Assembly: GCA_031290885.1 (NCBI GenBank)
Contig: JAISLQ010000003.1
Span: forward strand, 1 to 42,467
Direction: 5' to 3'
DNA from: Acidaminococcales bacterium
Lineage (GTDB): Bacteria > Bacillota > Negativicutes > Acidaminococcales > JAISLQ01
DNA: 42,467 nucleotides
Shown here piece by piece: positions 32,825 to 40,049 of the stretch. The translations under genes were made by a program, and so were the position numbers. Every line of letters starts with the position of its first letter. The first letter of the stretch is position 1. The notes below the pieces were generated by a model, which ran no database searches, had not been told where the DNA came from, and saw nothing but the letters and a program-made list of their open reading frames with translations.

Positions 32825-34357
32825 CTATTCGGCTTCCGCTTCCCCCGGAATTTTTCGGGGAAGGCAAAGCTCTTTCAGGCGTTCGGCGAGACGGGTTTCA
32901 TCTACGGCAAATTCCAGCAAATATGAACCGTAAAGTATCCCCGCGTCCCGGTACACCAGCCGGCTGTCGGACGGCTTGAAGAGGGAAAACAGCGACTTGC
33001 CGGCCTGCCCGAGCTTTGCCTTGTTTTTGAGAGCCGCCAGTATTTTGGCTAAGTTCTTCGCTTCCCGGGCGGCGCCTCTACGCAACGCGCCGGGCAGCAT
33101 TTTCCGGCTATAGGCGAGAGCGTAGCAGCAGTCGTACAATTCGGCGCTTTCGCTTAGGCCGTTTTCCGTCAGGGCGGATATTTTAGCCAGCAGCCATTCC
33201 CTCTGCCGCGCAAGGTGCGCGGCGGCGGTTATCTCCTCGTTGCCTCGCCACGGATCGTCCGCCATCCACGCCCACAGGGAAAAGATATCCGCCGCATGCG
33301 CGCCGCGCGCGAAGGATGCGGTTAATTTTCTCCAGGCTTGTTTTTTCTTTTCCCCAATCGTTTTCGCGAAAACGTCCGTCATATTGATGTCAGGGGAGTT
33401 TTCTTGAATCACGCGCCAGCGCTTTTCAAACCCCGCCAAAAGAAAAGCGTCCCGCATCTCTTCAAGCCAAAGGTTTATCCTATCCGCCTGCCGCGTATAT
33501 TCGCGCTCTTTAAGCAAGGGCCCGGCAAAAAGCAAAAGCTGCTTTAGCCTATATGTTTCCCGGCAAAAAGCGGCCAATTTCTTTTTGCCGCCGCCGGCGG
33601 CATCCGTCAAAGCGGACAAAGAACGCCCGATTTGGGCGATGAGCGCGCCACGCAAAACATTCTTGAACGGTTTTTTAGCGTCAAGTTCTTTTATCCGCCG
33701 CTCACTTGCGGACGGTTTTGCTTTTTCCCCGGCCAGCGCGCAGCCGCGATCGTATTTGCTGCGCTTTTCCGTGTAAAGCGGCGCTTCCTTTAACAGCAAA
33801 GATAAAAACTCAATAAGGGCAGGCGCTTTGCCTGACAAGAGTTCAAACTCCACTTCGGCGACCGGCGCCGTCTTTTCCCCGGCGGCGATCCAGCCGGTGT
33901 CCACCGCCATTTCAACCACAGTTTGGCCGGGAAGGGCGAGTTCGCAGCTGCGCCTTTCCACGGCAACGGTGAAAAGTTTTTCTACGCCGCCGTCTTTGGC
34001 GGCCATGCCCGGCAGATCCGCCAGAAAGCTGATTTTGCCGAACCCGCCGAGATCCGGCTTGGCTGTAGGCAGCTTGACGCTGTATTCCATGCGTTCGGAA
34101 AGGCCGCCGCTGTTCTTGTTTTCTATTTTTGCCGTGCCGACGAACCCGCCCGCTTCGGCGCGTACGCGAAACGCCACGCCGGACTTGGCGAAGCGGCGCT
34201 TCGGCGTGTCGTAATAGCGGCTTTCCAGTTTTTCTGTCCTTTCGCTGCCGGGCACTATATATTTTTTGACTGTTTCAAGTTCAAAAATGCCTTCAAGGAC
34301 GTGTTCCGAGAAGGCAATCAGTTTTATTTCCGTTTCAATGTTGTTGCCGACGCCCAT
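32825..34357 (-). CDS. CYTH domain protein with divergent CHAD-like C-terminus
   Basis: The N-terminal CYTH (triphosphate tunnel) domain, about residues 5-200, begins with the ExExK metal-site motif (E8-T-E10-I-K12). It has further barrel pieces RYYDTPKRRFAKSGVAFRVR and VEFELLSGKAPALIEFLSLL, and is probably an inorganic triphosphatase. The C-terminal 300 residues are helical with evenly spaced Lys/Arg, like a CHAD domain, a polyphosphate-associated helical bundle. The classic histidines of the CHAD motifs are mostly absent (for example CRETYRLKQLLLFAG). The ATG at 34357 is 8 bases after GGAGG. It follows the 80-residue gene closely. Confidence 0.75.
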   Translation of the reverse strand: MGVGNNIETEIKLIAFSEHVLEGIFELETVKKYIVPGSERTEKLESRYYDTPKRRFAKSGVAFRVRAEAGGFVGTAKIENKNSGGLSERMEYSVKLPTAKPDLGGFGKISFLADLPGMAAKDGGVEKLFTVAVERRSCELALPGQTVVEMAVDTGWIAAGEKTAPVAEVEFELLSGKAPALIEFLSLLLKEAPLYTEKRSKYDRGCALAGEKAKPSASERRIKELDAKKPFKNVLRGALIAQIGRSLSALTDAAGGGKKKLAAFCRETYRLKQLLLFAGPLLKEREYTRQADRINLWLEEMRDAFLLAGFEKRWRVIQENSPDINMTDVFAKTIGEKKKQAWRKLTASFARGAHAADIFSLWAWMADDPWRGNEEITAAAHLARQREWLLAKISALTENGLSESAELYDCCYALAYSRKMLPGALRRGAAREAKNLAKILAALKNKAKLGQAGKSLFSLFKPSDSRLVYRDAGILYGSYLLEFAVDETRLAERLKELCLPRKIPGEAEAE

Positions 34358-34372
34358 AAGCCACACCTCCGC

Positions 34373-34615
34373 TCATCCGCGTATATCGGTAAAGAGCACC
34401 GCCGCTTCGGCGGCATCGTACACTTTCGGCGGCAGGAGCCGAAGATCGTCCGTCCGCCAGCCGCCGCGCCGGGCGAGCAGGCCCAATGCCTCCTCTTCGT
34501 CGCGCGCCAGCACGACCGCTACCGCGTCACGGTATAAATCCTGATGCACGCACGGTTCATTGATCATGCTGTAGCTGTGAAATTCCCTGTTGTGCCGCCA
34601 GACGTATATTTTCAT
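34373..34615 (-). CDS. Hypothetical 80-residue protein
   Basis: Not recognised. It starts MKIYVWRHNREFHSYSMINE and ends in VYDAAEAAVLFTDIRG. It is mixed alpha/beta by eye and soluble, with no signal peptide, membrane segment or cysteine pair beyond one Cys. Support for being real: ATG with a GGGGTG site, GC and codon use like its neighbours, a stop 15 bases before the CYTH gene start, and the same strand as both flanking genes. A segment DAVAVVLARDEEEALGLLAR resembles regulatory small-domain folds but proves nothing. Confidence 0.6.
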   Translation of the reverse strand: MKIYVWRHNREFHSYSMINEPCVHQDLYRDAVAVVLARDEEEALGLLARRGGWRTDDLRLLPPKVYDAAEAAVLFTDIRG

Positions 34616-34650: not shown

Positions 34651-36678
34651 TCAAGGCCGGCCCTTTTTTAATATGGCGAGCAGTTCCCCGATTTTTTCAG
34701 ATGCTTTTTCATACTCAAGTTCCCGCACGAGACTGCTTATTTCCCGGAGATAGCCGCTTATGCGCCCATCTTCCGCGCAGTCTTCCGTTTGCGCCGCAAT
34801 TTTGGCGGCGGTGTCGCCGATGCCGTAAAGGCAGGCGTCATCCAGCATTTCCAATTTGTCGATCAACATGGCGCCGCCGCAAAGCGCGAGCGCCTTGTCA
34901 TCCCCGTAAACATCCGGCGCGTTGGCCTCCGGCGATTTTACGGCGCCGTATTCAAGCGCGATTTTTTCCGGCGGCAGCCATTTGGCGAGTATCAAATTCA
35001 ATTGCGCCGGCTCAATCGGTTTGGAAATAAAGTCGTTCATGCCGCTCGCGATGAAAGTGTCGCGCGCTCCGGTTACGGCGTTGGCCGTCAAGGCGATTAT
35101 CGGCAGGCGTTTGTAAAATTCCCCTTTCATGCCGCGTATCCGCTTGGTGGCTTCTATTCCGTCCATGCCCGGCATCATGTGGTCCATAAATACTATGTCG
35201 TAGCGCTTGCTTTTTACCTTTTCGATCGCCTGCTCCCCGCTGTCGGCGGCGTTGCCCGAGATGTTGTGGGCGGCCAGCATCCCCAAGGCGACGGTAATGT
35301 TTATATGGTTGTCGTCGACAACTAGGATGGCTACACCGTCTTTGGCCATGACCCGCGCTATTTCGCCGGAGCGTTCAATGTTGTCCGGGTTGCCTGCGAC
35401 CAGCGGCAGCAAAACCGTAAAAACAGATCCTTTGCCGTATTCGCTCTCTACTTCCAGCTTGCCGCCCATCATGGACACAAGGGGTTTCGTGATGGACAGG
35501 CCCAGCCCCGTGCCGACTATGCCCCGGTTCTTCTTTGCGTCGAGCTGGCTGAACACTTCAAAAAGTTTCGGCATGTCTTCCTTCTTTATGCCAATCCCCG
35601 TATCTTTTACGCTGAATTTTATATATTCCCGTCCGCCCTCCGCATGCCGTTCGAGCGCTAAAGACACACAGCCCCTGCGGGTATATTTGATCGCGTTGTT
35701 GGTTATGTTCGTGAATATCTGCCGAAAACGCACCGCGTCGCCATAAACCACCGCCGGAAGGCTTTCGTCGATGCTGCTCGTAAATTCCAGTTCTTTGGCG
35801 TTGGCGGTGAATTTGCTCATCGAACAAATGTTGTCGTATAGCTCCGCCAAGTTAAAATCGGCAGGGACAATTTCCAGTTTGCCTGCCTCTATTTTAGAAA
35901 AATCCAAAATATCGTTGATAATTCGCAGAAGCGCCTTGGCCATTTTCTTGATGTCGGCAAAATACCGCTGCTGCAAGCTGTCAAGGTTGTCAACGCGCAT
36001 AAGGTCGCTCATCCCGATAATGGCGTTCATGGGCGTGCGTATCTCATGGCTCATGGAAGCCAGGAACCTGCTCTTGGCGCTGCTTGCTTGTTCCGCCTGC
36101 CTTTTGGCCAGAATCGTATCGGTCTCGTCGTGAAACAAAACCATTATGCCATCAAACGTATTGGCCTCGTCGAACATAGGCGTGGCATGTATGGCGTATA
36201 TGCGCAGGCTGCCTTTGCCGTCGATGTCAACGGTTTCTTCGGCCCGAACGGCTTTATGGCTTTGCATGGCATCTTCAAGTATGCCGCCGACCCGCGCCGA
36301 AAAGTCCGTGCCGCCAAAACCCTTGAACACCTCGGTGAATTTCGCCCCGTTGATAAGGCCGAAACTGCGCAAATTCAATAAATTCAAAAACGTGACGGTG
36401 CAGTAAGCGAAACATCCGTTACGGTCAAGCAGTATGATGATATCGGGGCTGTTTTCAAGCAAAAGGTCAAGATATTTTTCCTGGCGGGACTTTTCCGCCA
36501 AAATGGCCGCGCTGACGCGGGAACGGACGACATAGGCGTTTTTGTTTTGCTCCATGATAAAGTTCATGGATTTCAATTGCCTGTTCAGCCGTTTCATTTC
36601 CACGCGCAAATTAGCGTTTTCTGTCTGCAATTGCTCCATCGGCGTCAGTTGCTCGCTTGATTGCCGCGTATTGGCCAT
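34651..36678 (-). CDS. Hybrid sensor histidine kinase (PAS-HisKA-HATPase-REC)
   Basis: This soluble signalling kinase has, in order: an N-terminal coiled coil (about 14-45), a PAS domain (about 68-190, [20 protein letters not shown]), HisKA with phospho-H211 in [19 protein letters not shown], and a HATPase with N-box [10 protein letters not shown] and glycine boxes DTGIG (359-363) and GTGLGL (389-394). A receiver domain follows with D455/D456, phospho-D499 ([11 protein letters not shown]), T531 and K553. The last 100 residues are helical like an Hpt domain but have no phosphorylatable histidine in the expected place. No transmembrane helix. It starts 9 bases after the FIST gene, so input probably comes from the FIST protein. 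Confidence 0.93.
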
Positions 36679-36687
36679 ACATTTCCC

Positions 36688-37851
36688 TCATAAAATACAT
36701 ATTATTAAAACATTGTTGTTGAAGCGGTTAAACATTTTTCCTTCTTTATCGAATACCGGGCATATTTCCCCGCCCGAATAGGACGCCTGGTAGACTGTCG
36801 GCGCGCCGGCCATACATTGCGCGATTTTTTCCATCTCCGCGTCGCCTTCCGCCCCCAACACGAAGCTGCGAGCCGCGCATGAGTAAATGAGCAGGCTTTT
36901 CCCTTTCGCCTTGGCCAGCGCTTCTTGCAGCGTATTTTCCGCTGAGCTTACCACATCGTTGGCATCCATGATGGCGATGCTCAAAATGGCGCCGACCGGC
37001 ATCTCGCCGCCGAAAAGGATGCCCCCCTCCTTGTCCGCCAGCCGGAAAGCCGTGCGCATGAGCGCCGGCGTCCCGTCGTTAAGGTTAATTAATATCGGCA
37101 TGGTGCTGATGCCGCGTATGTTGCCTTTTTCAATAAGCCCCATGGAAACAAAATAGTCGGCCGCGCTTATATTGTTTACTCCGCGCAAAATATTTCTTTC
37201 GGCGGCGGTAATAATCGCCTTTTGTTTGAAAACGCGGTCTTCCGACACATAGGCCACGAGAAATTCCGGGGAAATGTCGCCGCCGGCCGCCACGATGACG
37301 ATTTTATCGGTATCGTACTGGTCATTGTAAATGGTGTATAAATTCGTCAGGTCAATTGTCGTGCCAAAAGAGCGCGTGCCAAAAACAGGCGCTCCCCCGG
37401 ACACTTTGTCCATCTCCGCGACGAACTCGTCCCCGCTTATAAGGGGCGAAAAAGGTACAAATGTCAGGAGCAGCTTGGGCCTTTCCGGAAGTTCGGCCTC
37501 TATCCGCGCATACAGATCTTTGACCGCCCCGGCGGCATCATTGCCGACTTTCTCCGAAATCCCGGCGGCAAAGCAGACATCGTCGGAAGTAAGCACAGAC
37601 AAAGTAAGCAGAAGCTGCCCGAATTCGCCGCACGCCACCGTACCGCTGGTGGTGCAGCCTACCAAGTCGAAGGGCAGTTTGCCTTTAAGCGCCTCCACGA
37701 CGCCGGAATCCAGAAAATCTTCCGGGCAATGGACGATCCCCACGGAGTTTTTCAGTTGGCTATGCGCAAGGTCAAGCTGCCCAAGCAATTCTTCCACCGC
37801 CTCGTCCACATAGTCAATTTCTCTGGTACACGCTGTCAGCATCTTTATCAT
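36688..37851 (-). CDS. FIST domain sensor protein
   Basis: FIST (FIST_N plus FIST_C) domains are intracellular sensor modules thought to bind small ligands such as amino acids, usually linked to chemotaxis or two-component proteins. Visible features are FDLVGCTTSGTVACGEFGQL in the N-domain, then KLLLTFVPFSPLISGDEFVA and APVFGTRSFGTTIDLTNLYT. The FIST_C part has GILFGGEMPVGAILSIAIMD and SLLIYSCAARSFVLGAEGDA. It has no attached kinase or methyl-accepting domain, so it must signal through a partner; the hybrid kinase 9 bases downstream is the obvious one. 387 residues is typical. ATG sits after GGCGGGGTG. Confidence 0.88.
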   Translation of the reverse strand: MIKMLTACTREIDYVDEAVEELLGQLDLAHSQLKNSVGIVHCPEDFLDSGVVEALKGKLPFDLVGCTTSGTVACGEFGQLLLTLSVLTSDDVCFAAGISEKVGNDAAGAVKDLYARIEAELPERPKLLLTFVPFSPLISGDEFVAEMDKVSGGAPVFGTRSFGTTIDLTNLYTIYNDQYDTDKIVIVAAGGDISPEFLVAYVSEDRVFKQKAIITAAERNILRGVNNISAADYFVSMGLIEKGNIRGISTMPILINLNDGTPALMRTAFRLADKEGGILFGGEMPVGAILSIAIMDANDVVSSAENTLQEALAKAKGKSLLIYSCAARSFVLGAEGDAEMEKIAQCMAGAPTVYQASYSGGEICPVFDKEGKMFNRFNNNVLIICIL

Positions 37852-37950: not shown

Positions 37951-39453
37951 CTACAGCGTCCTCATTTGCGGAAAAAACAAGACGTCCCGAATAGACGCGC
38001 TGTCGGTCAGGAGCATTGCCAGGCGGTCAACGCCGACGCCGAGGCCTCCCGTGGGCGGCATGCCGTATTCGAGCGCCGTTATATAGTCCTCATCCATCAT
38101 GTGGGCTTCTTCGTCGCCCGCGTCGCGGCTTTCCACTTGACGGGCAAACCGTTCCTTCTGGTCTACCGGGTCGTTGAGTTCGGAAAAACCGTTGCACAAT
38201 TCGCGGCCAAAAACAAAAGCCTCAAACCGGTCGGTCATTTCATCGTCCCCCCGGCTGCTTTTGGCCAAAGGCGACACTTCTTTGGGATAGCCAGTGACAA
38301 AAGAGGGCTGAACCAGCTTTGCCTCAGCGCAATGTTCAAAAACCGCGTTGATTATCTTGCCCGCGCCGAAATTTTTTTCAATCGCCGCCCCTGATTTTTG
38401 GGCGTTCGCCCGCAAGTCGCCAATGTCCAAATGGGGCGAGAAGTCAAGGCCGGTTTCCTGCCGGATGGCTTCCGTCATGCTGATGCGCCGCCAGGGAGGC
38501 GTAAAATCTATCTCCTGTCCCTGATAGGTTATACTGGGCCGGCCGGTTGTTTCCTTGACAACATAATGTATAAGTTCTTCCGTCAGCTCCATCATATCGT
38601 TATAATCGGCGTAGGCCTGATAGGCTTCCATGAGCGTGAATTCCGGGTTGTGCCTTGTCGACAGGCCCTCGTTGCGGAAAACCCGCCCGATCTCGTACAC
38701 CCGCTCCAAGCCGCCGACGATCAGGCGTTTGAGATAAAGCTCCGGCGCTATCCGCATAAAAAGGTTCATGCCCAGGGCGTTATGGCGGGTAACAAAAGGT
38801 TTGGCCGCCGCCCCGCCGGCAATGGCATGCATCATCGGCGTCTCCACCTCAAGAAAATCGCGCCGGTCAAGAAAATGCCTGAGCGCGCGTATTATTTTGC
38901 TGCGCGCCGTAAAAGTGTCCTTGACGCTTTTGTTGACAATAAGATCAATATATCTTTGCCGGTAACGGGTGTCTATGTCCTTCAGGCCGTGCCACTTTTC
39001 CGGCAGGGGGCGCAAGGATTTGGTCAATATCTCCAAAGATTCCGCCTTTACGCTCACCTCGCCCATGCGGGTGCGAAAGACCGTTCCGCCAATGCCGGCA
39101 AAGTCGCCTATATCCATGAGTTTGAGCAGTTTGTAGTCGTCTTCCCCTAAAGCGTCTTTGCGCAGGTAACATTGAATGTTGCCGGTACGATCCGAAAGAT
39201 CAATAAAAGTCGTCTTGCCGTGCCCACGTATGGCCATGACACGCCCGGCCACTCGCACCCGGTCCGTCTCGGCAAAACTGTCAAACCCATCGGCAATCGC
39301 CGCCGCCGTATGCGTGGGCGCGAAACGCCGGCCAAAAGGCTCGTGCCCACACGCCGCCAATTCATCCATTTTCTGGCGGCGCGCGTTCATCTGCTCGTTT
39401 ATGCCGCCCACATCAGCCGTCTGCTGCCCCGGTTCTTTTTTCCGTTCGGTCAA
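37951..39453 (-). CDS. lysS: Lysyl-tRNA synthetase (class II)
   Basis: It charges tRNA-Lys. The N-terminal OB-fold anticodon domain has [20 protein letters not shown]. The class II motifs are motif 1 ([20 protein letters not shown]), motif 2 ([20 protein letters not shown]) and motif 3 ([12 protein letters not shown]). 500 residues is standard. The start is TTG with AAGGAG 9 bases upstream, formed by the last codons of greA. The stop of greA lies 6 bases before it, so greA-lysS is an operon, a pairing seen in many Firmicutes. Confidence 0.97.
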
Positions 39454-39459
39454 AATAAT

Positions 39460-39951
39460 TTACTCCTTAGCCGACATGCGTTTTATCGACATGATCTTAT
39501 ACTTTATTGTCCCGTCCGGAACGGCCACCTCCACCGTTTCGCCTGATTTTCTGCCTATAATCGCGCTGCCCACCGGCGATTCGTTGGAAATTTTATTGGC
39601 CAGGGGATCCGCTTCCGCCGAACCGACCAGCGTATATTCAACGGTTGATTTCAGCGCTACGTCCCGCAGTTTCACCGTCGCCCCCAAGGTAACCATATCG
39701 GTTTTTATTTCGCCGTCGTCAATCACCTTGGCCGTGCGGATCATTTTATCAAGGGTGATTATCTCCCCTTCAATAAAGGCCTGCTCGTTCTTGGCGTCTT
39801 CGTATTCGGAGTTCTCGCTTATATCGCCGAAAGAGATCGCCTGTTTTATCCGTTCCGCGACTTCCAGGCGCCGGACGGATTTTAGCGTCTCTAATTTTTC
39901 TTCAAGTTTCTTCAAGCCTTCGGCCGTCAAGATGGTCTCTTTTTCCGTCAT
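39460..39951 (-). CDS. greA: Transcription elongation factor GreA
   Basis: GreA rescues backtracked RNA polymerase by stimulating transcript cleavage. The N-terminal coiled coil carries the acidic tip [19 protein letters not shown], which enters the polymerase channel. The C-terminal FKBP-like domain has [20 protein letters not shown]. The ATG at 39951 has GGAAGGGG 6 bases upstream and gives 163 residues, the normal size; the longer frame adds 14 residues with no support. It is driven by a consensus promoter. Confidence 0.97.
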
Positions 39952-40049
39952 AATATGCCCCTTCCCAAATGGCCGACTTCCCGGCCGACGCAAAAAATCG
40001 CTTTGTCGGCGCTATCCAAAACTTTGCCGATAATTTGCTTTATTGGTTA

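Follow-up and report, generated by a model that had tools for sequence, protein, structure and literature searches.

A stand-alone FIST gene beside a gene for a soluble hybrid histidine kinase is a two-gene unit that recurs, and the more interesting point of this work is how it is distributed over gut bacteria from different phyla. The pair analyzed here lies in the window, a stretch of 42,467 nucleotides of contig JAISLQ010000003.1 from an Acidaminococcales bacterium (assembly GCA_031290885.1). It is best explained as a sensory pair in the cytoplasm, of the FIST/NosP-kinase type, and to this explanation, with the separate Hpt output included, we give slightly better than an even chance. The FIST family to which it belongs is interleaved across at least eight phyla.

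The FIST-kinase pair and its surroundings

The features to which the text refers are as follows.

39460..39993, minus strand: greA, upstream neighbour, named by reading
37951..39453, minus strand: lysS, upstream neighbour, named by reading; matched in 21 of the 21 genomes searched
36688-37851, minus strand: FIST gene, 387 aa, intact
36877..36879, minus strand: codon of Cys325 of the FIST protein; Cys in 103 of 103 aligned FIST rows, aligned with FBXO22 Cys326
36718..36720, minus strand: codon of residue 378 of the FIST protein; Asn in this protein, whereas 95 of 103 aligned rows have His
36679..36687, no strand: 9-bp spacer between the FIST gene and the kinase gene, which are on the same strand
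34651-36678, minus strand: kinase gene, 675 aa, intact, product soluble
36118..36459, minus strand: PAS domain of the kinase, residues 74-187; PF08448 (PAS_4), 35.0 bits
35881..36078, minus strand: HisKA, residues 201-266; PF00512, 72.8 bits
36046-36048, minus strand: codon of the phospho-acceptor His211, invariant in 6 of 6 aligned kinases
35401..35742, minus strand: HATPase_c, residues 313-426; PF02518, 95.3 bits
34996..35328, minus strand: receiver, residues 451-561; PF00072 (Response_reg)
35182-35184, minus strand: codon of the phospho-acceptor Asp499, invariant in 6 of 6 aligned kinases
34654..34911, minus strand: C-terminal helical module, residues 590-675, by sequence homologous to the module after the Hpt in longer relatives
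34373..34615, minus strand: 80-aa orphan gene, downstream neighbour
32825..34366, minus strand: CYTH-domain protein, downstream neighbour; PF01928, 41.9 bits

The sequence-only reading of this DNA had placed a FIST gene 9 bases upstream of a cytoplasmic PAS hybrid kinase that carries its own receiver, and the analysis agrees: both genes are intact, and the kinase has the HisKA, HATPase_c and receiver domains of a hybrid histidine kinase, with the phospho-accepting His and Asp in place. As had also been stated, no DNA-binding regulator was seen among the genes adjoining the pair. Apart from the kinase, the contig has a single receiver match, in a 120-aa frame at 1277-1609 next to a gene that we take to be a flagellar, FliY/CheC-like one. 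The neighbours were likewise as described, with greA and lysS upstream and an orphan gene and a CYTH protein downstream, except that Pfam found no CHAD domain in the latter at E up to 1. The 80-aa orphan is without a Pfam or NCBIfam match, and it adjoins the pair in the genus's second genome as well.

In that second genome, hereafter the sister, the gene order is unchanged for lysS, greA, the FIST and kinase genes, the orphan and the CYTH gene, with 78% identity for the FIST protein and 81% for the kinase. Within the taxonomic order, FIST matches were found in 8 of 61 genomes at E 0.001, four of them strong (the source genome, the sister, G048 and G058) and four weak, and within the class in 53 of 380 genomes at E 1e-10, some as partial matches only. 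In G048 the arrangement is REC-HD-GYP, FIST and a kinase with a true Hpt, and in G058 it is a kinase with Hpt, FIST and REC-HD-GYP. The greA-lysS genes are kept in 18 genomes of other families (19 were searched, of which 18 gave the locus and were examined), and no match to FIST, kinase, orphan or CYTH was found in their flank, which was at most 1.5 kb and in some cases less than 0.3 kb. Conservation in relatives, on which the sequence-only reading had made its proposal depend, therefore came out divided: matches in the order are few and none lies in the examined greA-lysS flanks of the other families, whereas the pair is kept in the sister and far outside the order.

The kinase tail and the route of output

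The tail of the kinase had been read as an Hpt domain that has lost its histidine. As an impression of the fold this is fair, as AlphaFold predicts four helices for the tail alone (pLDDT 79), which match Hpt domains at Z 10 to 11; these are tied with unrelated four-helix bundles, and the fold is thus too unspecific to decide. By sequence, the tail scored 16.2 bits against a profile of the post-Hpt module of longer relatives (built from 18 sequences, of which the source genome itself supplied 3), the best of 500 shuffled tails reaching 6.8, in contrast to 2.4 bits against a profile of 17 Hpt domains, for which shuffled tails reached up to 5.4. As far as the sequence goes, a degenerate Hpt is rejected. 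The last 110 residues matched no Pfam family over its cut-off, no Hpt was found in the kinase by Pfam at E up to 1 or by a local model, and a genome-wide scan with PF01627 (E up to 10) returned nothing in the kinase gene; a C-terminal Hpt with a phospho-accepting His, as in tripartite hybrid kinases, was not seen. The post-Hpt module has no conserved histidine column of its own, the fullest column holding 6 of 20. As judged from sequence, the tail would be the module that follows a true Hpt in relatives, with the Hpt itself missing.

The kinases linked to FIST genes differ in this region. When 55 pairs were typed with local models, 17 kinases had a true Hpt after the receiver, 12 had two receivers, and 25, with the kinase of the window and that of the sister included, had one receiver and no Hpt; one cut kinase was left untyped. 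Among the tails listed, only the kinases of the window and of the sister keep the post-Hpt module without the Hpt.

Systems are known in which a stand-alone FIST gene adjoins a kinase gene, as it does here, and the FIST protein regulates the kinase. According to the available parts of the reports, these are NosP/NahK in Pseudomonas and Legionella and NosP/NosK/NosR in Burkholderia, and their output runs either via HptB, a separate Hpt, or via a regulator of the HD-GYP kind. For instance, the available text of PMC12570481 states that NosP changes NosK autophosphorylation and that NosK phosphorylates an HD-GYP regulator, which is itself probably an inactive enzyme, and that of PMC11784011 that NahK hands its phosphate to a separate HptB. 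Unlike these systems, the pair in the window has no adjoining regulator, it has Asn in place of the FIST_C histidine, and its kinase carries the post-Hpt module without the Hpt.

The FIST protein shares one trait of NosP, namely that it is encoded beside a histidine kinase, at a spacing of 9 bp. The curated models gave a different answer. The NosP model NF041558 (cut-off 450 bits) did not match the FIST protein at E up to 1 and stayed below its cut-off for other FIST proteins, with 36.7 bits for the one on contig C59 of the source genome and 51.5 bits for that of G058, while the kinase scored 184.5 bits against NF041832 (cut-off 400) and 122.5 bits against NF041831 (cut-off 1500), the models for NahK and for the kinases near NosP. 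Membership in NosP/NahK was rejected on this basis, and because both proteins fall below the curated models, we file the locus as a FIST-kinase pair outside NosP/NahK that probably functions in the same manner. A reading as NosP proper, with heme bound by the FIST protein, nitric oxide as its signal and the pair as a NosP/NahK system, is in our view improbable. Its gene pairing and domain plan are the same, and the kinase is a partial match to the NahK/ErcS-type domain of NF041832; against this stand the two model scores and the FIST_C histidine, which is replaced by Asn both here and in the sister, in a protein that has only two histidines in all.

In a sensory pair that works like NosP/NahK, the FIST protein would have a small ligand bound within or close to its C-terminal repeat and would gate the autophosphorylation of the adjacent soluble kinase, in which phosphate would then pass from His211 to Asp499. 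The phosphate would leave most likely through a separate Hpt and go on to a response regulator, for instance one of the REC-HD-GYP type, because the kinase is without an Hpt and yet keeps the post-Hpt module. The parts of this scheme differ in strength. It is quite probable that FIST gates the kinase, while the route through an orphan Hpt falls somewhat short of an even chance; the HD-GYP output and the small-molecule ligand are what we infer.

The source genome, an assembly of 85 contigs that is 95% complete, was searched for such partners, as the sequence-only reading had proposed, and one orphan Hpt and three REC-HD proteins were found. The orphan Hpt, the only stand-alone one found, is a 119-aa protein over the Pfam cut-off (G000:C59:33856-34023, or L051:1375-1734) and is the candidate for the route described above. 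The further Hpt matches are one of what we take to be CheA type and two below the cut-off inside long kinases. Two of the REC-HD proteins are on C20 and one, with a partial HD domain, is on C82, and there is one GGDEF protein. The orphan Hpt lies on another contig than the pair and adjoins a DUF362 gene (7 bp before), not a kinase gene. Since 16 of the 30 receiver matches in the genome lie within open frames of more than 500 aa, it could serve other kinases of the source genome. Four FIST genes were found in this genome, all within FIST-kinase clusters: besides the pair analyzed here, C47 carries two FIST genes clustered with a kinase gene (FIST-FIST-kinase), and C59 carries one FIST-kinase pair. 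The gene of the orphan Hpt is divergent from that of a protein with what are presumably iron-sulfur-type cysteine motifs.

The claim of a unit without a separate regulator thus holds locally. It does not extend to the family, in which 8 of 60 named loci (described below) have an HD-GYP match on the same strand no more than 700 bp from FIST and 12 of 60 have one somewhere in the available locus DNA, nor to the source genome, with its orphan Hpt and REC-HD proteins elsewhere. Alternatively, there could be no phosphorelay output, the kinase's own receiver acting as an internal brake, or the output could be protein contact or phosphatase activity. We consider this rather unlikely, because His211 and Asp499 are intact and the source genome offers an Hpt and regulators, although no regulator adjoins the pair and the 25 of 55 FIST-linked kinases with one receiver and no Hpt are consistent with it. 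Because of the same 25 kinases, the kinase in the window may need no Hpt.

The FIST domain and its conserved cysteine

The FIST protein consists of FIST N (PF08495, 61.9 bits, cut-off 23.2) and FIST C (PF10442, 53.2 bits, cut-off 28.5), and its AlphaFold model has a pLDDT of 95.7 and a pTM of 0.94. The best match of the model among solved structures is FBXO22 (Z 20.3 over 264 residues, rmsd 4.0), and the next are chorismatases and cyanuric acid hydrolases, which match over the whole length at Z about 12 to 13. The latter are enzymes, to which FIST proteins are likened here by their predicted fold. FBXO22 and the FIST protein would share one fold with an identity of about 13% in the structural alignment, and FBXO22 is a ubiquitin-ligase substrate receptor, unlike the FIST protein of the window. 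The kinship of FBXO22 with chorismatases and cyanuric acid hydrolases, which have a YjgF-derived fold, is already published in PMC11185555, as the available part of that paper states; the pairing of the term 'Toblerone fold' with FIST was not found in the papers searched, and the same kinship is worded otherwise in that part of PMC11185555. The authors, in the same text, saw no obvious ligand pocket in FBXO22, which counts against a simple ligand pocket in FIST.

When FIST proteins were aligned in 103 rows (7 frames of less than 350 aa were dropped, and one contig was counted twice, as L015 and L083), the residues conserved besides Cys325 included Glu362 (103 rows), Arg328 (102) and Cys364 (92). 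The Cys-x-x-Arg motif is also present in four plasmid FIST proteins, from an archaeon, a cyanobacterium, Sulfurovum and Legionella. Searches of the PDB sequences with the single FIST protein and with a 6-row profile found no FIST structure. With a 58-row profile, Cys325 and Arg328 aligned with FBXO22 Cys326 and Arg329 in a weak match (E 0.5), and it is on this weak profile match together with the strong fold match (Z 20.3) that the equivalence of Cys325 and Cys326 is based. In FBXO22, Cys326 is the residue modified by aldehyde compounds, according to the available text of PMC11208438 and PMC13316043. If these lines are drawn together, FIST sensors, swapped as FIST-kinase cassettes among at least eight phyla of termite-gut bacteria, might read a small molecule shared by the habitat through a nucleophilic C325 (the equivalent of FBXO22 Cys326), and FIST domains from bacteria to human would then sense carbonyls or other electrophiles; we regard this proposal as a long shot. 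The conserved cysteine matched in FBXO22, the high-confidence model and the many natural FIST-kinase pairs make the ligand question of FIST domains testable.

Spread of the pair across phyla

A scan of a collection of 84,980 species with two short peptides gave 60 named loci. The scan required exact short peptides taken from these same sequences, so that it has low recall and picks members with a bias; for instance, five genomes hold 17 FIST copies, of which the scan's five loci cover six. The loci belong to Spirochaetota, Synergistota, Elusimicrobiota, Planctomycetota, Deferribacterota, Fibrobacterota, Actinomycetota, Acholeplasmatales and several Bacillota families, by names that we assigned from the record titles. 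A hybrid-kinase frame lies on the same strand within 700 bp of FIST in 52 of the 60, and by a stricter count (FIST frame of at least 350 aa, gap of less than 350 bp) in 50. The conserved-neighbourhood analysis that had been suggested therefore supports FIST plus hybrid kinase as a two-gene unit well. The eight loci without a kinase comprise three with FIST at contig ends, one with two FIST genes before a chemoreceptor, one with FIST before a GGDEF gene, and three with neither in the frames scanned.

In a maximum-likelihood tree of 82 FIST rows (L015 and 16 of the 26 loci of Negativicutes family f20 were left out), 67 rows form one supported group (99/95) within which the phyla are interleaved. 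The starred branches force at least eight changes for Synergistota and at least eight for Spirochaetota, and five for Oscillospiraceae. The FIST protein of the window falls, unexpectedly, apart from its own order, in a 6-row set (100/99) with the sister, three Spirochaetota rows and one Synergistota row, and those of G048 and G058 group with Negativicutes family f20 (94/94, not starred). The phyla are also interleaved in the kinase tree, which was built by a quick method. This lineage quite probably acquired the pair horizontally, out of a gut-bacterial pool of such pairs.

The cross-phylum pattern could instead result from misbinned gut metagenome contigs, or from paralogues that arose in ancient times and were lost in part. 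To judge by the titles, most of the named members are metagenome bins; the family is multi-copy with up to nine copies per genome, and the number of changes on the tree does not separate transfer from duplication and loss. However, the pair lies between the same chromosomal genes in two assemblies, the source genome and the sister; two Spirochaetota genomes, G780 and G878 (4.1 and 3.9 Mb), carry their FIST copies on single contigs of more than 3.6 Mb; the starred branches force their changes in both Spirochaetota and Synergistota; and 149 of 185 Synergistota genomes have no match at E 1e-40, the other 36 having up to 9 copies. This explanation is therefore unlikely, and transfer from the gut pool is preferred. 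Among Spirochaetota, 15 of 392 genomes, drawn from a larger group, match FIST.

Whether the two genes travel together was judged from the pairs (L019, L122, L128, short FIST frames and repeated kinases were left out). The nearest neighbours of FIST and kinase agree in 33 of 55 pairs, compared with at most 8 in 2000 permutations. The agreement is 27 of 31 for FIST neighbours from the same group and 6 of 24 for those from another. For the 51 closest comparisons, the correlation of FIST and kinase distances is 0.79. In a mirror-tree comparison of all 55 pairs there was no correlation (Spearman 0.07, with 98 of 2000 permutations as high), which speaks against simple co-inheritance, and between groups the correlation was 0.02 (310 of 1000 permutations as high). 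Because neighbours agree within groups and distances do not correlate overall, the cassettes seem to hold together in the short term and to exchange partners in the long term. Either the genes have changed partners or the kinase core is too short for a good tree, and in consequence the couplings may differ from that of NosP/NahK.

The accessions of 15 of the 60 loci lie inside the termite-gut MAG block given in the available part of PMC7024585, and five more carry the sample codes Iy174 and Pcl387, which are named as lower-termite MAGs in that of PMC12887300 (where Ly174 is printed). The loci with a checked source, 20 of the 60 named, are thus all from termite guts. From the shared naming scheme and accession series, we infer that 32 further loci belong to the same termite project. 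Seven loci carry BN and BO accessions and stand outside the termite-gut tallies. One more, GUT77, is presumably from a termite gut. The habitat of the loci is suggestive of a FIST family restricted to insect guts, and of gut bacteria sharing such sensors with one another; the term 'FIST domain' did not occur in the open-licence papers listed by a search on termite guts. The spread of one sensor family across phyla in a shared gut would show that signalling parts, and not only metabolic genes, are a shared resource.

Some further loci stand out. At L107:4719-9630, a methyl-accepting chemotaxis protein (HAMP and MCPsignal), in place of a kinase, comes after a tandem of two FIST genes that belong to this family, and at L136:4018-7101 a FIST gene is followed by one small frame and then by a GGDEF protein. 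On a Calothrix plasmid (L145:1657-5268), a FIST gene lies 6 bp before a PAS histidine kinase; the plasmid is typed as mobilizable, and transposase genes lie upstream of FIST. Nine FIST copies are present in the Synergistaceae genome G380, from which L087 comes, and two of them lie on its contig C40 in opposite directions.
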